NCBI GenBank assembly: GCA_028868975.1
Contig: JAGWTM010000006.1
Coordinates: 1-40,402 of the forward strand
Length of the DNA: 40,402 nucleotides
Reading direction: 5' to 3'
DNA from: Actinomycetales bacterium
GTDB lineage: Bacteria > Actinomycetota > Actinomycetes > Actinomycetales > Microbacteriaceae
In this document: positions 30,679 through 36,934 of the stretch, piece by piece
How positions within the stretch are numbered: position 1 is the first letter of the stretch
Layout of the letters: every line of letters starts with the position of its first letter
Translations under genes and position numbers: made by a program
Notes under the pieces: generated by a model
Told to the model about the DNA's origin: nothing
The model's input: the letters and a program-made list of their open reading frames with translations, nothing else
The model's database searches: none

Positions 30679-30819
30679 TAACGATAGAGAAAACGCCGCC
30701 AGTTGAATCGTAAAGTCACGACTTCATAGGTTTCATGCGTTACTCTTTATTGAAAGACCCATGTATTTCGCAATCGCGACTTGACATGGGTCTAAGTACT
30801 GCCCGGATTAGCCTCACGC

Positions 30820-30825
30820 TAGTCT
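30820..30825 (+). promoter_or_regulatory. candidate -10 box of sigA
   Basis: TAGTCT would start RNA near 30832, leaving a 17-nt leader with AGAGG before the ATG. A perfect TTGACA at 30781-30786 has no good -10 at 17 nt and may belong to a second promoter. The 191-nt gap before sigA holds nothing else I can identify. Confidence 0.4.
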
Positions 30826-30848
30826 CGGCGGGGAGCCGAGAGGTCGGA

Positions 30849-32567
30849 ATGGCGAAGAAAGAGCAGCAGCCGGAGGGCGCGAAGAAACGTGGTTTCTTCG
30901 AAAGATTGTTGCACCCGGGTCAGGAAACTGCGATCGCTCAGGAAACTGCGATCGCTCAGGAACCGGTTTTGCCGGAACCAGCGCCCGCATCCAAGTCAAA
31001 GCCGGTGACCTCGAAGTCGAAGGCCACTGAATCAAAAGCCACCGGGGGCGCAAACAAAAAGGAAACAAGTACCATTCCAGCTTCAACTGCCAAATCCACC
31101 TCAACGACCAAAACCTCGACCACGAAGACCTCGTCTGCAAAAGCTGCAGCCGAGAAGAAAACAGTCGCAGATGACCCTAAGAAGGCGGCTAAGACTTCGG
31201 CCTCGTCTGCATCTAGTGACACTGCGAAGACCCCTGCTAAGAAGACTGCTTCAAGCAAGGTAATTGCCGAGCAGCCTGAGAAGTCGGCGGCTAAGCCAGC
31301 CAAAGCGGCTAAGCCAACCGCAAAAGACAGCGCGAGCGAAGAGGCCGAGGCCAAGCCGGTCAAGGCTGCGAAGGCACCAAAGGCGCCTAAGGCGGCGAAG
31401 CTGCCAAAGGGCATGGACGACGAAGTAGAACTAGACGACGAAGATGCGATTGAGGATGATGTCGCCGTAATCGTCGCTGAAGCCACCGAGGCAGTCGATC
31501 TCACCGCTGTTGAACCAGAGGTTGCTGAGGACCACCACGATGACGAACTTCCGGTAGACGCCAAAACTAAAGAGCAGCTTGATAGCCGCGGCGGTCTCAT
31601 CCTGACCCATCGTGAAGATGAGGACATTCCGGTTCAATCGACCACCATCACCGGTGCTACCGCCGACCCGGTCAAGGACTACCTAAAGCAGATTGGTAAG
31701 GTCGCGCTCCTCAATGCAGAGCTTGAGGTTGAACTTGCCAAGCGAATCGAAGCTGGTCTCTTTGCCGAGGAGAAGCTTGCAACCGACAAGAACCTAACTC
31801 GAGAAATGGAGCGCGACCTCAAGTGGGTCGTGAAGGATGGACAGAAGGCCAAGAGCCACCTGCTCGAAGCTAACCTGCGTCTCGTCGTAAGCCTCGCCAA
31901 GCGATACACCGGCCGTGGCATGCAGTTCCTGGATCTGATTCAGGAAGGCAACTTGGGTCTCATTCGTGCGGTGGAGAAGTTTGACTACACCAAGGGCTAC
32001 AAGTTCTCGACCTACGCAACATGGTGGATTCGCCAGGCCATTACGCGAGCCATGGCCGACCAGGCAAGAACGATCCGCATCCCTGTTCACATGGTTGAAG
32101 TAATCAACAAACTTGCCCGCGTTCAGCGACAGCTCTTGCAAGACCTTGGGCGCGAACCGACGCCTGAAGAAATTGCACGCGAACTGGACATGACTCCCGA
32201 AAAGGTGGTCGAAGTCCAGAAGTACGGTCGTGAACCAATTTCGCTCTCGACTCCGTTGGGTGAAGATGGCGATAGCGAATTTGGTGACCTCATCGAAGAC
32301 ACCGAGGCAGTTGTTCCAGCCGACGCTGTTGGCTTCACCATGCTGCAGCGTGAACTGGAACGCATTCTCGAGTCGCTACACCCTCGTGAAGCTGGCGTAA
32401 TTCGTTCACGTTTCGGTTTGGGTGACGGAGTTCAAAAAACTCTTGACCAAATCGGTGAAGAGTTCGGTGTGACTCGTGAACGCATCCGCCAGATTGAGCA
32501 AAAGACCATGTCCAAGCTCCGTCACCCGTCGCGTTCCCAGATGCTCCGTGACTACCTAGACAACTAG
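30849..32567 (+). CDS. sigA: primary RNA polymerase sigma factor (sigma-70 family)
   Basis: The housekeeping sigma factor, 572 aa from ATG 30849 (AGAGG upstream); the in-frame ATG at 30735 lies before the promoter. Residues 1-180 or so are Lys/Ala/Ser/Thr-rich, then an acidic stretch near 190-235, as in other actinobacterial SigA proteins. Region 1.2 begins at [16 protein letters not shown]; region 2 has [20 protein letters not shown] and [17 protein letters not shown], which melt and bind the -10; region 4.2 has [19 protein letters not shown]. It contains an exact 18-nt tandem duplication (30921-30956). murT and gatD follow, with 8 nt to murT. Confidence 0.96.
30921..30956 (+). repeat. 18-nt tandem duplication within sigA
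   Basis: CAGGAAACTGCGATCGCT occurs twice back to back, giving QETAIA twice in the protein, followed by a partial third copy (CAGGAA). Each unit holds the palindrome GCGATCGC. It keeps the frame and looks like a recent slippage or duplication in the disordered N-terminal region. Confidence 0.95.
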
Positions 32568-32575
32568 GCATCGGT

Positions 32576-33838
32576 TTGTACTTCCTCGCGATTATCGTCG
32601 GTCGACTGACTAGATTCGCGATTCGCCTTGTTCGGCCAGGTGGCGGTTCGGCATTGCCGGGTGTGATTTTGTCCAAGCTTGCGCCTGGAATCCTCAAACG
32701 AACTCTGGGGTCGTTCCCGCAAGGCGTGTTTATCGTGACCGGTTCCGCTGGCAAATCGACGACCACCAAGATGTTGGTTGCTATCGCGCGTGCGCACGGG
32801 CTGCGGGTTTTCACAAATCCAAGCACCGCCAACATCACCCAGGGTTTTTACGCAACTATCATCGAACGCTCGAGTCTTTCGGGTCGGATCACCGGCGACA
32901 TCGCAATTCTCGAGATGGATGAGGGGCACGCGGCCACGCTTGTCGATCTCGTGCCGCCAAGATTTGTCACGGTGCTGAACGTCATGGAGGACCAACTCGA
33001 TCGTTTCGTTGATCCGGCTCTGGTTCGCGAAAAACTTGCCAAGACTGCTGCGGCTGCGAGCGATGGCGTCGTGTTGAATGCTGACGATCAGAATTTGCTG
33101 CTGATTGCCGATGACGTCCCCGCCGTGAAGAGTTGGGTTGGTATCGATGATGTCCTCATGGCCCAGCAAGCGCACGGCCTCGGATACGCGCCGACCTATC
33201 TGGAGCAGCGGGTGAAACCTGAGGTTAGCGCCTTAGTGTTGAGGCTGAACGGGCTCACAGCAACGATTCGGCGCGGCGATGTCATGGGCGAAGTGAAACT
33301 ACCCAATCGCGGTCTCCATTTCGCCTTAGATGCCGTGGCGGCGATTGAATCCGCTGCGCTATTGTTTGGGGACGAATTCGATTTTGCCTTGTCCTGCCAG
33401 ACTCTCAGCGAACTACCTCCGGTGTTTGCCAGAGGTGAAATTGCCGAGGTAGAGGGCCAACAGGTCGAATTCATTCTGGTTCAAAATCCGATGAGCTTTC
33501 AGCTCAACCTTGACTATCTGACTACCGAACCCGAACGTCTGATGGTTGCCATTGGTCGAGACGTGCACGACCCGAGTTGGCTCTGGACCGTCGACCTATC
33601 AAACATCTCTCAGGTTGACGTGGTTACCGGGTACAACGCCTACGAAATGGCTCTCAGATTTGCCTATGACGAGGTCCCGATGGGCCTTGTCGAACCTGAC
33701 CTAGAGTCGGCAGTTCGAGCCTTCCTCGACCTTCCTGCCCCAGCGCGAGGCGTGAAAACCGTGATTTTCTCAGCGGATGCCATGAGGCGGATCCGCCGCA
33801 TGTTGGGCTTTACTGACCCAGAGGATGTGTCCAGGTGA
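32576..33838 (+). CDS. murT: MurT-like Mur ligase, lacking the zinc ribbon
   Basis: A 420-aa homologue of MurT, the ATP-dependent subunit that with GatD amidates the D-Glu alpha-carboxyl of lipid II. Residues 1-30 match the MurT N-terminus (GRLTRFAIRLVRPGGGSALPG). The P-loop is VTGSAGKSTTTKML (56-66) instead of the usual GTNGKTT. NVMEDQLDRF and the C-terminal DUF1727 domain with DPSWLWTVDL and VVTGYNAYEMALRFAY are retained. The four-cysteine zinc ribbon of the middle domain is absent; the whole protein has one cysteine (LSCQTL). It starts with TTG 8 nt after sigA and overlaps gatD by 4 nt. MurT ancestry is fairly sure; amidation activity is doubtful. Confidence 0.82.
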   Translation: MYFLAIIVGRLTRFAIRLVRPGGGSALPGVILSKLAPGILKRTLGSFPQGVFIVTGSAGKSTTTKMLVAIARAHGLRVFTNPSTANITQGFYATIIERSSLSGRITGDIAILEMDEGHAATLVDLVPPRFVTVLNVMEDQLDRFVDPALVREKLAKTAAAASDGVVLNADDQNLLLIADDVPAVKSWVGIDDVLMAQQAHGLGYAPTYLEQRVKPEVSALVLRLNGLTATIRRGDVMGEVKLPNRGLHFALDAVAAIESAALLFGDEFDFALSCQTLSELPPVFARGEIAEVEGQQVEFILVQNPMSFQLNLDYLTTEPERLMVAIGRDVHDPSWLWTVDLSNISQVDVVTGYNAYEMALRFAYDEVPMGLVEPDLESAVRAFLDLPAPARGVKTVIFSADAMRRIRRMLGFTDPEDVSR

Positions 33839-34482
33839 GTCAAATGTTCAATCTTCTCGTGCTGTATCCCGAACACCTCAATCTCAACGGCGATCTGGCG
33901 AATGCCGGCATTTTGGCGCGTCGCATGAATTGGTTCGGCTTCGACTCGGCCATTGAGTTCCATCATCCGGGTGACCCGTTGCCCAATTCGCAGCCGGACT
34001 TTCTACTTCTGGGTCATGGCTCGGAGGCTGCCTGGCAAGCTGTTCGCCGAGACCTGACCAACAATTGGTCACAGCTCAAGAGCTGGATAGATAACGGCAT
34101 GTATGGCCTTGCCGTGAACAGTGGTCAGGAACTCTTGCACGAACCTGCATTCGAGCTTTTTTCAAACACGCTGACCAGTGGACAACGCAAGAGTAATTTC
34201 GCCGTGGTTGAATCCGACCTCGTGTTGGCGGATAAAAAACTACTTGGTTATCAAAACAGCGAAACGAACGCTCCGCTTCTCGAGCGTTATAGAAACTTTT
34301 TAGGAACCCAATTGCACGGCCCGCTGTTGGCCAAAAATGCTTGGTTTGCAGATTGGCTTGTCTCTCAAATCACCGGTGAAGGTCATCCCGTGCCGGCCAA
34401 CTACTCACAGAGTTGGGTCGAGGCAGTTTCCAGTTTTGAGGCTGGGGTCTGGGCTCTTGAGAGTGAATTAGCGGGCGAGTAG
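33835..34482 (+). CDS. gatD: GatD-like class I amidotransferase homologue without the catalytic cysteine
   Basis: The 215-aa partner of MurT. The N-terminus FNLLVLYPEHLNLNGDLANAG and the late motif GTQLHGPLLAKN (His161) match GatD, which hydrolyses glutamine and passes ammonia to MurT. The nucleophile motif, normally like AVCGGYQLLG, is AVNSGQELLH: Asn95 replaces the cysteine. There is no cysteine anywhere in the protein, and the usual GGGQD loop reads GHGSE. It therefore should not hydrolyse glutamine. GTG 33835 overlaps the murT stop; ATG 33844 is an alternative. It overlaps the convergent DUF7455 gene by 15 nt. Confidence 0.82.
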   Translation: MSQMFNLLVLYPEHLNLNGDLANAGILARRMNWFGFDSAIEFHHPGDPLPNSQPDFLLLGHGSEAAWQAVRRDLTNNWSQLKSWIDNGMYGLAVNSGQELLHEPAFELFSNTLTSGQRKSNFAVVESDLVLADKKLLGYQNSETNAPLLERYRNFLGTQLHGPLLAKNAWFADWLVSQITGEGHPVPANYSQSWVEAVSSFEAGVWALESELAGE

Positions 34483-34686
34483 CTTTTCAGTCTCGTCGTG
34501 CCAGTCGAGGGCAATCGGTGCAAGTCGCTCACGATTCTCGTTTGCGTGGTGGCGGCAGAACAAAAGCTCACCCGACTCCAAGAGAACACGAACGTATGCC
34601 TGGGCTCCACAGCTGTCGCAACGGTCAGCCGTGGTGAGCGCAGGCGCCTCCTCGACGAGAGTCGCGGTGTTTTCAGTGTTTTCCAT
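34468..34686 (-). CDS. DUF7455 small zinc-binding protein
   Basis: A 72-aa protein with a CDSCGAQAYV pair (C-X2-C) and LLFCRHHANENRERL (C-X2-H type), forming one likely zinc site. It matches the short actinobacterial DUF7455 proteins found near sigma factor and topoisomerase genes; function unknown. ATG 34686 is preceded by GAAGGGA, and the longer frame upstream looks unlike the family. Its 3' end overlaps gatD by 15 nt on the opposite strand, so the two transcripts must overlap. Confidence 0.87.
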   Translation of the reverse strand: MENTENTATLVEEAPALTTADRCDSCGAQAYVRVLLESGELLFCRHHANENRERLAPIALDWHDETEKLLAR

Positions 34687-34828
34687 GGAGTGTCCCTTCA
34701 GTACGTCTCTATTGGAACACGAGTCCGGTGCGTGAGACGTCATTTTCGCCTCGAGTTCGCTAACTGCGAAGAGATTGTTCCATCGCCCTGCACTCGTGTT
34801 GGTCACTCAGGATTTTTCGTCAGCGGTT

Positions 34829-34840: not shown

Positions 34841-36934
34841 GTGCCAGAATCAAGCGAATACTCAGCCAGACATCTCAGCGTCCTGGAGGGGCTAGAGGCT
34901 GTTCGCAAGCGTCCCGGCATGTACATCGGTTCAACCGACTCTCGGGGTTTGATGCACTGTCTCTGGGAGATCATCGATAACTCGGTTGACGAGGCTCTGG
35001 CCGGTTTCGGAAATCGCATTGAGGTCACGCTTCACGATGACGGATCTGTTGAGGTTAGAGACCAGGCCCGAGGCATTCCGGTTGACATTGAACCCAAAAC
35101 CGGCCTCACTGGCGTTGAGGTGGTCTTCACCAAGTTGCATGCCGGCGGAAAGTTCGGCTCAGGTTCCTACGCAGCGTCGGGAGGATTGCACGGTGTAGGT
35201 GCTTCGGTCGTAAACGCACTGTCGCAACGTCTCGATGTTGAAGTTGATAGAGACGGCAAGACGCACAAGATGTCCTTCCGCAGGGGTGAACCAGGTCGCT
35301 TCGACGACTCCAAAGGTGTGGCTCCTGACAATCCATTCACTCCATTCGAGGACTCATCCTCGCTAGAAATTATTGGCAAAGTCGCCAAGGGTGTTTCGGG
35401 TTCTCGCGTCCGCTATTGGGCGGACCCTCAAATCTTTATTCGGGATGCTGTCTTCAGCATTGAGGATCTATTGAATCGTGCCCGTCAGACTGCTTTTCTG
35501 GTGCCGGGTTTGGCGCTCGAGATTGATGATCGTCGTCAATCGGCTGGTAGCTCCCCGGCCAAACACCAGTTCAGATTTGACGGCGGCATCACGGAATTTG
35601 CCGACTTCTTGGCCCCAGACAATCGATTGACGGACACCTGGAGACTTTCTGGCGAAGGCAAATTCACCGAAACCATTCCGGTGCTAGATGACTCGGGCAA
35701 CATGGTCTCACGCGATGTAGAGAGAAACTGCCAGGTCGACATCGCGGTTCGTTGGGGAACCGGGTACGAGACTCAGCTCAAGAGCTTTGTCAACATCATC
35801 GCTACGCCAAAGGGCGGAACACACCTTGCCGGGTTCGAACAGGCCATCTTGAAGATTCTGCGGGCTCAGGTCGAAGCCAATGCCCGAAAACTTAAGGTTG
35901 GCTCTGACAAGTTAGAAAAAGAGGATGCGCTAGCCGGCCTAACCGCGGTTATCACGGTTCGCCTGGCCGAGCCCCAATTCGAAGGGCAAACCAAGGAGGT
36001 ACTTGGTACTCCAGCGGTAAAGAACATCGTTGCGAACGTCGTCGCCAAGGCCTTGAACGACAGATTCACCAGCTCAAAGCGGGACGATAAAACGCAGGCA
36101 ACGCTGCTGCTCGAGAAGGTTGTCTCCGAGATGAAGGCCCGCATTTCGGCCCGCACCCACAAGGAGACCCAGCGCCGCAAGAACGCTCTTGAAAGCTCAT
36201 CGCTTCCGACCAAGCTGGTTGACTGTCGCACTCAGGAGACCGAGGGTTCAGAGCTTTTCATCGTCGAGGGTGATTCCGCTCTCGGAACCGCGAAATTGGC
36301 GCGCGACAGCGAATTCCAGGCTTTACTGCCGATTCGAGGAAAGATTCTCAACGTACAAAAGGCTTCTGTCAGCGACATGCTGTCTAACGCCGAATGCGCA
36401 TCGATCATTCAAGTAATCGGCGCCGGTTCTGGCCGAAGCTTCGACCTTGAAGCCGCTCGCTACGGCAAGGTCATCCTGATGAGCGATGCCGATGTTGATG
36501 GTGCACACATTAGGACTCTTTTGCTGACGCTGTTTTTCCGCTACATGAGACCGTTGGTGGAGGCAGGTCGCGTCTTTGCTGCCGTGCCGCCGTTGCACCG
36601 CGTCGAAGTGATCAACAGCGGTTCGAAGAAGAATGAGGTTTTGTACACCTATTCTCAGCAGGAACTAGAGCAGGTCCTCGCTCGCTTGGCGGCAACCGGG
36701 AAGCGGTACAAGGAACCCATCCAGCGCTACAAGGGATTGGGTGAAATGGACGCAGACCAGCTGGCGGAAACCACCATGGATAGACAACATCGCACGCTGC
36801 GTCGAGTACGCGTTGAAGATGCTGCCGCGGCAGAAGCGGTTTTTGAACTCTTGATGGGCAACGAAGTCGCTCCACGACGTGACTTCATCGTCGACTCGGC
36901 CGACAGCTTCGAACGTGAACGAATCGACGCGTAG
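34841..36934 (+). CDS. parE: DNA topoisomerase IV subunit B
   Basis: ATPase subunit of a type IIA topoisomerase, 697 aa. The GHKL ATPase domain has EIIDNSVDEALAG (Asn47), DQARGIPVDI and GGLHGVGASVVNALS; the TOPRIM domain has IVEGDSALGTAK and LMSDADVDGAHIRTLLL. I call it topoisomerase IV rather than gyrase because the partner subunit alongside lacks a GyrA box and because this location near sigA is that of the second type II enzyme of actinobacteria (ParY/ParX of Streptomyces). The GTG is predicted to be the mRNA 5' end. Convergent with parC, 50 nt apart; no clear terminator in the gap. Confidence 0.93.
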   Translation: MPESSEYSARHLSVLEGLEAVRKRPGMYIGSTDSRGLMHCLWEIIDNSVDEALAGFGNRIEVTLHDDGSVEVRDQARGIPVDIEPKTGLTGVEVVFTKLHAGGKFGSGSYAASGGLHGVGASVVNALSQRLDVEVDRDGKTHKMSFRRGEPGRFDDSKGVAPDNPFTPFEDSSSLEIIGKVAKGVSGSRVRYWADPQIFIRDAVFSIEDLLNRARQTAFLVPGLALEIDDRRQSAGSSPAKHQFRFDGGITEFADFLAPDNRLTDTWRLSGEGKFTETIPVLDDSGNMVSRDVERNCQVDIAVRWGTGYETQLKSFVNIIATPKGGTHLAGFEQAILKILRAQVEANARKLKVGSDKLEKEDALAGLTAVITVRLAEPQFEGQTKEVLGTPAVKNIVANVVAKALNDRFTSSKRDDKTQATLLLEKVVSEMKARISARTHKETQRRKNALESSSLPTKLVDCRTQETEGSELFIVEGDSALGTAKLARDSEFQALLPIRGKILNVQKASVSDMLSNAECASIIQVIGAGSGRSFDLEAARYGKVILMSDADVDGAHIRTLLLTLFFRYMRPLVEAGRVFAAVPPLHRVEVINSGSKKNEVLYTYSQQELEQVLARLAATGKRYKEPIQRYKGLGEMDADQLAETTMDRQHRTLRRVRVEDAAAAEAVFELLMGNEVAPRRDFIVDSADSFERERIDA

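Follow-up and report, generated by a model that had tools for sequence, protein, structure and literature searches.

A cysteine-less MurT/GatD pair as a candidate ligase for the type-B peptidoglycan cross-bridge of Microbacteriaceae

A MurT/GatD pair encoded on a 40,402-nucleotide stretch of a Microbacteriaceae genome (assembly GCA_028868975.1, contig JAGWTM010000006.1; hereafter the window) is probably an amidotransferase remade into an ATP-dependent ligase, which would join a D-diamino acid to the alpha-carboxyl of D-Glu. Type-B peptidoglycan, cross-linked via this carboxyl, is a taxonomic hallmark of Microbacteriaceae, and we know of no enzyme for the type-B bridge, nor of any defined family of B-type bridge ligases. 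A full-text search of a limited literature collection found nothing joining MurT and GatD with Microbacterium, murT with Clavibacter, or B-type with Microbacteriaceae. The first-pass annotation of the window had proposed that MurT activates the carboxyl for an amino-acid nucleophile, with GatD as a non-glutaminase partner, in making the B-type bridge, and comparative evidence from the family lends support to this core idea.

The two genes, murT (420 aa, TTG start; positions 32576..33838, + strand) and gatD (215 aa, GTG start; 33835..34482, + strand), occupy open frames that overlap by 4 nt. MurT matches PF08245 (32.8 bits, cut-off 24) and the MurT_C family PF08353 (37.5 bits, cut-off 25), while GatD matched no Pfam family and was recognised by its similarity to S. 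aureus GatD (phmmer E 3.3e-08); both proteins miss the NCBIfam equivalog level (NF045635, 84.4 bits versus 800, for MurT; NF045636, 31.4 bits versus 400, for GatD). AF2 models have mean pLDDT values of 92.9 (MurT) and 90.4 (GatD), with MurT of S. pyogenes (9sq9_B) as the top Foldseek match of the former among PDB entries and a GatD chain (6h5e_A) as that of the latter. Gapless alignment to S. aureus GatD places Asn95 (codon 34117..34119, + strand) at the site of the nucleophile Cys94, and GatD contains no cysteine; the substitution thus stands as annotated, but the motif pairing offered for it (AVNSGQ with AVCGGYQ) requires a gap, the gapless match being AVNSGQE to TICGGYQ. Alignment also bears out the changed loop (GHGSE for GGGSD/GGGQD) and the retained His161 (codon 34315..34317, + strand; S. 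aureus His189), which lies in an LHGP motif aligned with LHGP of S. aureus. The reading of MurT was likewise correct as to its single cysteine, P-loop (GSAGKST), DPSWLW motif and MurT_C domain. The Mur-ligase residues are all present (P-loop GK[ST] Lys60, Mg-binding Glu113 and carboxylate-binding Asn86), as is Asp332 (codon 33569..33571, + strand; S. aureus Asp349), with a preceding loop 3 residues shorter. Glu138 (codon 32987..32989, + strand) occupies the site of S. pneumoniae Arg135, the ammonia-gate residue according to the available part of PMC6085368.

The pair resembles the MurT/GatD lipid II isoglutaminyl synthase of S. aureus and S. pneumoniae in its two overlapping genes, both folds, the MurT_C domain and the positions of the P-loop Lys, Glu108, Asn85, Asp349, Asp136 and Arg140. 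Unlike that synthase, it has no nucleophile cysteine, a changed GGGxD loop and no gate Arg135, and its MurT has the shortened loop before Asp349 and lacks the Cys4 zinc ribbon, the last of which is not diagnostic. Judged from these residues, the known glutaminase mechanism of MurT/GatD cannot run in the window's pair. Class I glutamine amidotransferase subunits that kept the fold and lost the nucleophile cysteine (pseudo-glutaminases) exist; unlike these in general, the loss in GatD is common to a whole subfamily and comes with changes in the synthase subunit. A second, normal MurT/GatD pair was not found in the window's genome (a single PF08353 match; assembly 90.6% complete) or in a complete genome of the same genus, where the two other matches were weaker than 1.5e-5.

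A MurT tree of 195 rows, built by a quick method from 208 loci (L002-L209) minus 13 with short or identical MurT, unites the cysteine-less MurTs in one clade of 109 rows (SH-aLRT 100), whose sister clade keeps the GatD cysteine in 57/57 rows. A second set comprises 72 clade rows from 80 named loci, after exclusion of six non-family loci and two in which no GatD was found (L247 and L283), and has some genomes in common with the first. The comparison set of 75 cysteine-keeping rows is defined by having the cysteine (the 57 sister-clade rows and 18 others). Glutaminase and gate features were lost as a block while ligase features were retained: the GatD cysteine is present in 0/109 and 0/72 clade rows, MurT Arg135 in 0/109 and 0/72 (75/75 cysteine-keeping rows), and the loop before Asp349 has 6 residues in 109/109 and 72/72 (9 in 75/75), whereas the P-loop Lys, Glu108, Asn85, Asp136, Arg140 and Asp349 are kept in 109/109 and 72/72. 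By alignment alone, the shortening of this loop removes a DNAAD motif. The GatD His161/His189 column holds His in 75/109 clade rows versus 75/75 cysteine-keeping rows, and the Arg118 column, which matches GatD Arg128 by alignment alone, holds Arg in 104/109; Arg128 is a glutamine-binding residue in the accessible text of PMC5871853. Simple decay of the pair, which the first-pass annotation had discounted on its intact, overlapping frames, is rejected by this uniform loss in 109/109 rows beside intact ligase residues. The annotation had also taken the missing zinc ribbon as a sign of repurposing; this argument fails because 67/75 cysteine-keeping MurTs lack the ribbon pattern too (CxxC...CxxC is present in 8/75), and the excerpted PMC6085368 places the zinc tetrad in 'some Actinobacteria'.

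Among the genomes searched, the cysteine-less clade is confined to Microbacteriaceae: in a profile search of 394 genomes of the class, 14 family genomes scored 565–592 bits and no genome outside the family exceeded 402, and all 58 non-family rows of the 195-row set keep the cysteine. The expectation that cysteine loss marks the B-type lineage is borne out with exceptions: 17/149 family genomes carry a cysteine-keeping pair (the sole pair in 14 of them), so that a rule of cysteine loss in all Microbacteriaceae is rejected. A cysteine-less MurT of this clade occurs in 97/149 family genomes (class B/C, a tally that includes G035, with MurT at a contig end and no GatD) and the clade B/C pair is missing from 52; some cysteine-less pair (classes B/C, D and E) is held by 107, and three genomes (G050, G060 and G113) have a cysteine-containing pair alongside a cysteine-less one. 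A MurT match better than 3.2e-8 to the window's MurT was not found in 27/149, and the rule that a B-type wall needs this pair is rejected as stated; if all the genomes lacking the clade B/C pair are B-type, something else must make the bridge there. In the presumed Microbacterium (g78, by MurT identity to named loci), at least 5 genomes have a MurT match and at least 13 have none, among those listed.

The cysteine-less pairs occupy one chromosomal slot. In the window it is bounded on the left by a sigA-like sigma factor gene (30735..32567, + strand) and on the right by a gene for a small CxxC protein (34468..34806, - strand) and a parE/gyrB-like topoisomerase gene (34841..36934, + strand). The sigA-like neighbour is found at 146/198 loci examined, and at 0/36 cysteine-keeping Actinomycetales loci among these; the parE-like neighbour is likewise found at 0/36. 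Alanine-racemase-like genes flank 27/67 cysteine-less loci with wide flanks and 0/75 cysteine-keeping loci (wide flanks for 32 of the 75), and they do not adjoin clade B pairs, the window's included. Many MurT-less genomes carry in the same slot a cassette of CofE-like F420-0:gamma-glutamyl ligase (PF01996), ATP-grasp (ATPgrasp_ST, PF14397) and often racemase-like genes, which is of amide-ligase type and belongs to protein families other than those of MurT and GatD. Across the 149 family genomes, strong CofE-like matches (E < 1e-100) are limited to genomes without MurT, with 0/107 among genomes holding a cysteine-less pair versus 21/42 among those without (Fisher p 2.8e-14, kinship ignored; of the 17 slot genes behind the profile, 14 came from the 21 positive genomes, and the cut-off was set after the scores were known). 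Five genera (g7, g9, g53, g70 and g77) include genomes of both kinds, some with the CofE-like cassette and some with the cysteine-less MurT. At E 1e-20 the profile also gives more distant matches in three genomes with a cysteine-less pair (G049, G112 and G134), and in 6 of the 27 MurT-less genomes the cassette was not found either. By reading of ORFs, the slot of genome G045 holds an ABC transporter and no ligase.

It seems to us an even question whether this sigA–parE slot holds an exchangeable cassette determining the type-B cross-bridge of the wall in Microbacteriaceae, with the old glutaminase pocket and the subunit interface selecting the diamino acid in its MurT form. Its variants would comprise cysteine-less MurT/GatD subclades for diaminobutyrate (Dab) and a single Orn/Lys subclade, with racemase-like genes accompanying some of them, a second, distant MurT/GatD lineage lacking both the cysteine and the histidine, and the CofE-like, ATP-grasp and racemase set. 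B-type walls are documented in papers for several Microbacteriaceae genera, and in Rhodoluna, the genus of the window, the accessible description of the type strain, R. lacicola MWH-Ta8, reports a wall measured as B2beta/B10, with D-Dab in the bridge and the peptide D-Ala-D-Dab, which backs at genus level the B-type wall that the first-pass annotation had assumed.

The MurT subclade follows the bridge residue against the species tree. The residue fits the subclade in 11/11 rows (8 genera) with literature chemistry, and in 24/24 when 13 rows with uncited chemotypes, compiled after the clade membership of the genera was visible, are added; most of the chemotypes are genus-level. On the MurT tree the trait requires 1 change, versus 3 (papers) or 6 (all) on the GyrA+ParC tree. 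Agreia, Subtercola and Herbiconiux form one clade in GyrA (100/100). The AU test rejects them as a single MurT clade (p 1.7e-58), although the grouping tested had been picked from the GyrA tree made in that same analysis. Agreia is reported to have L-Dab joined to D-Orn, whereas Dab is given for Subtercola, and the Agreia MurT groups with the Orn/Lys subclade; as a point against the fit, Cryobacterium inferilacus is reported to have both Dab and Orn. The marker trees also place Clavibacter with Curtobacterium, Frondihabitans and Frigoribacterium, against the MurT tree. We consider it rather unlikely that the agreement reflects a poorly resolved species history or a biased assignment of chemotypes, an explanation that would in any case be compatible with a ligase role. 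In its favour, independent contrasts on starred branches are few (3/3 with papers only, p 0.25; 4/4, p 0.125), and the deep branches of the marker trees are unsafe because two outgroup rows fall within the family in the GyrA and GyrA+ParC trees; set against it, both of these conflicts with MurT lie on starred branches, and MurT itself rejects the first grouping.

In the reaction that we propose, MurT would bind ATP and activate the D-Glu alpha-carboxyl of a wall precursor as an acyl phosphate, a step suggested by its retained ligase residues. The nucleophile would be a free D-diamino acid, attacking through its amino group, rather than ammonia (D-2,4-diaminobutyrate in Rhodoluna), and the product, a D-Glu(alpha)-D-diamino acid branch, would lead to the B2-type cross-bridge. 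GatD would no longer hydrolyse glutamine but would remain associated with the C-terminal domain of MurT, where it may contribute to binding or selecting the diamino acid. Passage from ATP to an acyl phosphate and attack by an amino acid would be chemistry like that of MurD, MurE and MurF, and MurF chains are the first non-MurT Foldseek matches of the window's MurT, from rank 12. Unlike those ligases, MurT has a GatD-like partner encoded next to it and D-Glu alpha-carboxyl as its proposed acceptor, and the available part of PMC6113224 describes an N-terminal UDP-binding domain in MurD, MurE and MurF that MurT is without.

Loss of the cysteine alone does not forbid amidation, because the S. aureus complex of MurT and GatD C94G can use free ammonia to amidate lipid II at pH 8.5 (PMC3266927, in the part accessible). 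Together with the intact MurT ligase residues, this speaks for the main rival reading, a pair that still amidates D-Glu with free ammonia for some other wall use, GatD being a mere scaffold. We judge this improbable: it does not account for the absence of gate Arg135 and the shorter loop in 109/109 rows, for the agreement with the bridge residue, for the racemase-like genes nearby or for the CofE-like cassette of MurT-less genomes; an amidated alpha-carboxyl is unable to carry the bridge; and the co-occurrence of both kinds of pair in three genomes suggests two different jobs.

Micrococcus luteus carries glycine on D-Glu, and B-type or glycine-bearing walls also occur in Erysipelothrix and Eubacterium/Acetobacterium. 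Intrasporangium calvum has glycine on the D-Glu alpha-carboxyl in the accessible portion of PMC3035309, so MurT might add another residue such as glycine to D-Glu, or act on another wall substrate, with the diamino-acid fit being indirect; we hold this to be quite improbable, as the racemase-like neighbours, though absent beside clade B pairs, fit a D-amino acid. The missing catalytic cysteine of GatD would fit a pair that is a catalytically dead relic, or a regulator that persists solely for its contacts. This is very improbable, given that the P-loop Lys, the Glu that binds Mg and the Asn that binds the carboxylate are kept in 109/109 and 72/72 rows, that both subunits have confident predicted folds and that variants are exchanged at the slot.

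If the reading of MurT/GatD as a diamino-acid ligase is right, an enzyme for the type-B bridge would be named, an amidotransferase would have been turned into an amino-acid ligase through loss of its glutaminase, and the MurT subclade would serve as a genomic marker from which the bridge residue could be predicted in Microbacteriaceae.

The Cys-less pair of the window comprises two intact forward-strand frames, MurT (32576–33838) and GatD (33835–34482), overlapping by 4 nt as described in the first-pass annotation. The window MurT carries the Mur ligase middle domain and, as had been noted, retains the C-terminal domain MurT_C, both above Pfam cut-offs. No Pfam family was matched by the window GatD, and in its phmmer alignment with S. 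aureus GatD (E 3.3e-08) Asn95 occupies the position of Cys94, upholding the reported replacement of the nucleophile by asparagine. The AF2 models are confident (mean pLDDT of 90.4 for GatD and 92.9 for MurT), and their best structural matches are solved GatD and solved MurT, respectively. A second MurT/GatD pair in the same genome, named earlier as an observation that would speak against a repurposed pair, was not seen in the 90.6% complete assembly, with a single MurT_C match being found. A genome search placed G009 in the window's genus.

MurT/GatD pairs collected through family, order and class searches were divided into classes: A and F retain the GatD Cys; B (including the window) and C combine a Cys-less GatD with a MurT without the zinc-ribbon pattern; D has an FTHNALEVL-like elbow in GatD, with neither Cys nor His; E consists of two genomes; and L126 is an additional odd pair. 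In a 195-row MurT tree inferred by a quick method, classes B and C form one clade (SH-aLRT 100, branch 0.63) of 109 rows, all from Microbacteriaceae and none with the Cys, while its sister clade has the Cys in 57/57 rows. Cys loss across A-type lineages had also been named earlier as contrary evidence; outside Microbacteriaceae, Cys loss was seen in none of the 58 non-family rows of this set or the 16 class-search loci (many from the same genomes as the 58 rows), all of which retain the Cys. Among 149 family genomes, an even draw from a larger group, 97 have a class B/C pair (3 of them with a Cys-keeping pair as well), 8 class D, 2 class E, 1 the odd pair and 14 a Cys-keeping pair only; MurT was not found in 27. 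Cys-keeping and Cys-less pairs share a genome at L096/L055 (G050), L098/L056 (G113) and L101/L047 (G060).

Across 394 genomes of the class, a B/C clade profile scored 565–592 bits in 14 family genomes and ≤402 elsewhere. The best 80 loci from a scan of genomes with names comprised 74 that are Microbacteriaceae or group with them (including MAGs and one Planococcus-labelled record whose MurT groups with Microbacteriaceae genera) and 6 others (one Saccharibacteria bin and five Lactobacillaceae); GatD was found in 72 of the former, Cys-less in 72/72, and in 4 of the latter, Cys-retaining in 4/4. One contig binned as Candidatus Saccharibacteria (UBA2112; L279) bears an Actinomycetales-like, Cys-keeping MurT/GatD with 60.6% identity to a same-order row and is perhaps mis-binned.

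Residues were counted in two sets of B/C clade rows (the 109 of the tree and the 72 from the scan of genomes with names, some genomes being in both). The GatD nucleophile Cys and MurT Arg135, the latter described in S. pneumoniae as flanking the opening that faces GatD (PMC6085368), are each present in 0/109 and 0/72 rows. The MurT stretch preceding Asp349 has 6 residues in clade rows compared with 9 in 75/75 Cys-keeping rows, a shortening that, by alignment, would remove the DNAAD-like motif described as implicated in muropeptide binding (PMC6113224). Present in all 109 + 72 rows are the P-loop Lys, Glu108, Asn85 (described as carboxylate-binding by analogy with MurD/MurF; PMC6085368), Asp136, Arg140 and Asp349. 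The last has been proposed in the literature as the third residue of the triad, and its conservation in a clade without the Cys suggests another role. On this residue pattern, the glutaminase and gate half has been lost and the ligase half retained in the B/C clade. It is possible that the window pair still amidates, driven by ammonia, since S. aureus GatD C94G is described as supporting ammonia-driven amidation in vitro at pH 8.5 (PMC3266927).

Inspection of about 3 kb on either side showed that the Cys-less class B, C and D pairs, the window's included, occupy a chromosomal slot bounded by sigA on one side and by a small CxxC gene and parE on the other; neither sigA nor parE was found at four B/C loci, two of them second copies (L063, L090) and two cut (L110, L221). 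Neither gene adjoins Cys-keeping pairs within such flanks (0/17 family and 0/19 order loci). Alanine-racemase-like genes (PF01168/PF00842) lie in the flanks of 27/67 wide-flank B/C loci. These loci belong to clade C, and the window's pair has no such gene beside it. ATPgrasp_ST adjoins 4/8 class D loci and L069. Class D represents a second MurT/GatD lineage in this slot (L115–L122; 8/149 genomes, seven genera), with the zinc-ribbon pattern in 7/8 MurTs, and four of its genera (g34, g38, g44 and g61) also include a sampled genome of class B/C. Class E (L123 and L124 in G049 and G112, one genus), a third Cys-less lineage, lies beside a CofE-like gene at both loci. In a very reduced genome (G013, 927,303 bp contig), which we take to be Tropheryma whipplei, the Cys-less pair L107 has Ser at the nucleophile place and is flanked by sigA, parE and racemase-like genes.

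We also examined 21 MurT-less genomes (18 from the 27 above and 3 from genus g78). In 18, sigA is not close to parE, and the slots (L395–L412) hold a CofE-like F420_ligase gene (17/18), ATPgrasp_ST (15/18) and two alanine-racemase-like genes (12/18); the slot of G045 (L411), with neither MurT nor a CofE-like gene, appears to encode an amino-acid-type ABC transporter. In G017 and G047, sigA directly adjoins the CxxC gene and parE, and the G057 slot is cut by a contig end. The direct adjoining also holds in 9/9 Cys-keeping-only genomes examined (of 14), the CxxC gene not being found in two of these. Strong CofE-like matches (E < 1e-100) occur in 0/107 genomes with a Cys-less pair versus 21/42 without (149 genomes), of which the absence elsewhere is the telling part, as 14 of the 17 slot genes in the profile came from the 21 matching genomes; at a cut-off of 1e-20, 3/107 also match (G049, G112 and G134). 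Both slot states are present within genera g7, g9, g53, g70 and g77, indicating that slot content has been swapped within genera.

MurT phylogeny was compared with GyrA (34 genomes with names) and ParC (37, as for MurT, window included), the two outgroup rows being nested within the family in the GyrA and the combined GyrA+ParC trees, which makes the deep branches of these trees unsafe. GyrA unites Herbiconiux, Subtercola and Agreia (100/100); MurT places Subtercola + Herbiconiux (100/100) within subclade C1 and Agreia within C2 (100/99), and a single MurT clade of the three is rejected (AU test, p 1.7e-58). Similarly, Clavibacter groups with Curtobacterium, Frondihabitans and Frigoribacterium by GyrA (99/94); by MurT it falls in C1 (open fork) and the other three in C2. 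Published bridges include D-Lys in Frigoribacterium, Dab in Cryobacterium, C. arcticum and Clavibacter, Lys/Orn in Salinibacterium and, as described in PMC4156110, D-Dab in Rhodoluna. All 11 rows with published chemistry fit the MurT subclades (B and C1 rows having Dab, C2 rows Orn or Lys); Cryobacterium inferilacus, reported with both Dab and Orn, counts against the fit. Adding 13 rows with chemotypes taken as background knowledge, listed after the clade membership of the genera was seen, gives 24/24. The trait requires 1 change on the MurT tree versus 3 (published rows) or 6 (all 24 rows) on the species tree, and the contrasts on starred branches, all in the same direction, number 3 or 4, too few for a sign test to reach 0.05.

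We claim novelty for the bridge-ligase reading only against the literature searched, on MurT/GatD and on B-type Microbacteriaceae walls. Most simply, the slot would encode the enzyme linking the bridge residue to D-Glu, racemase-like genes would supply D-amino acids, and the Cys-less MurT/GatD would be this ligase in the majority of sampled genera, among them the window's.
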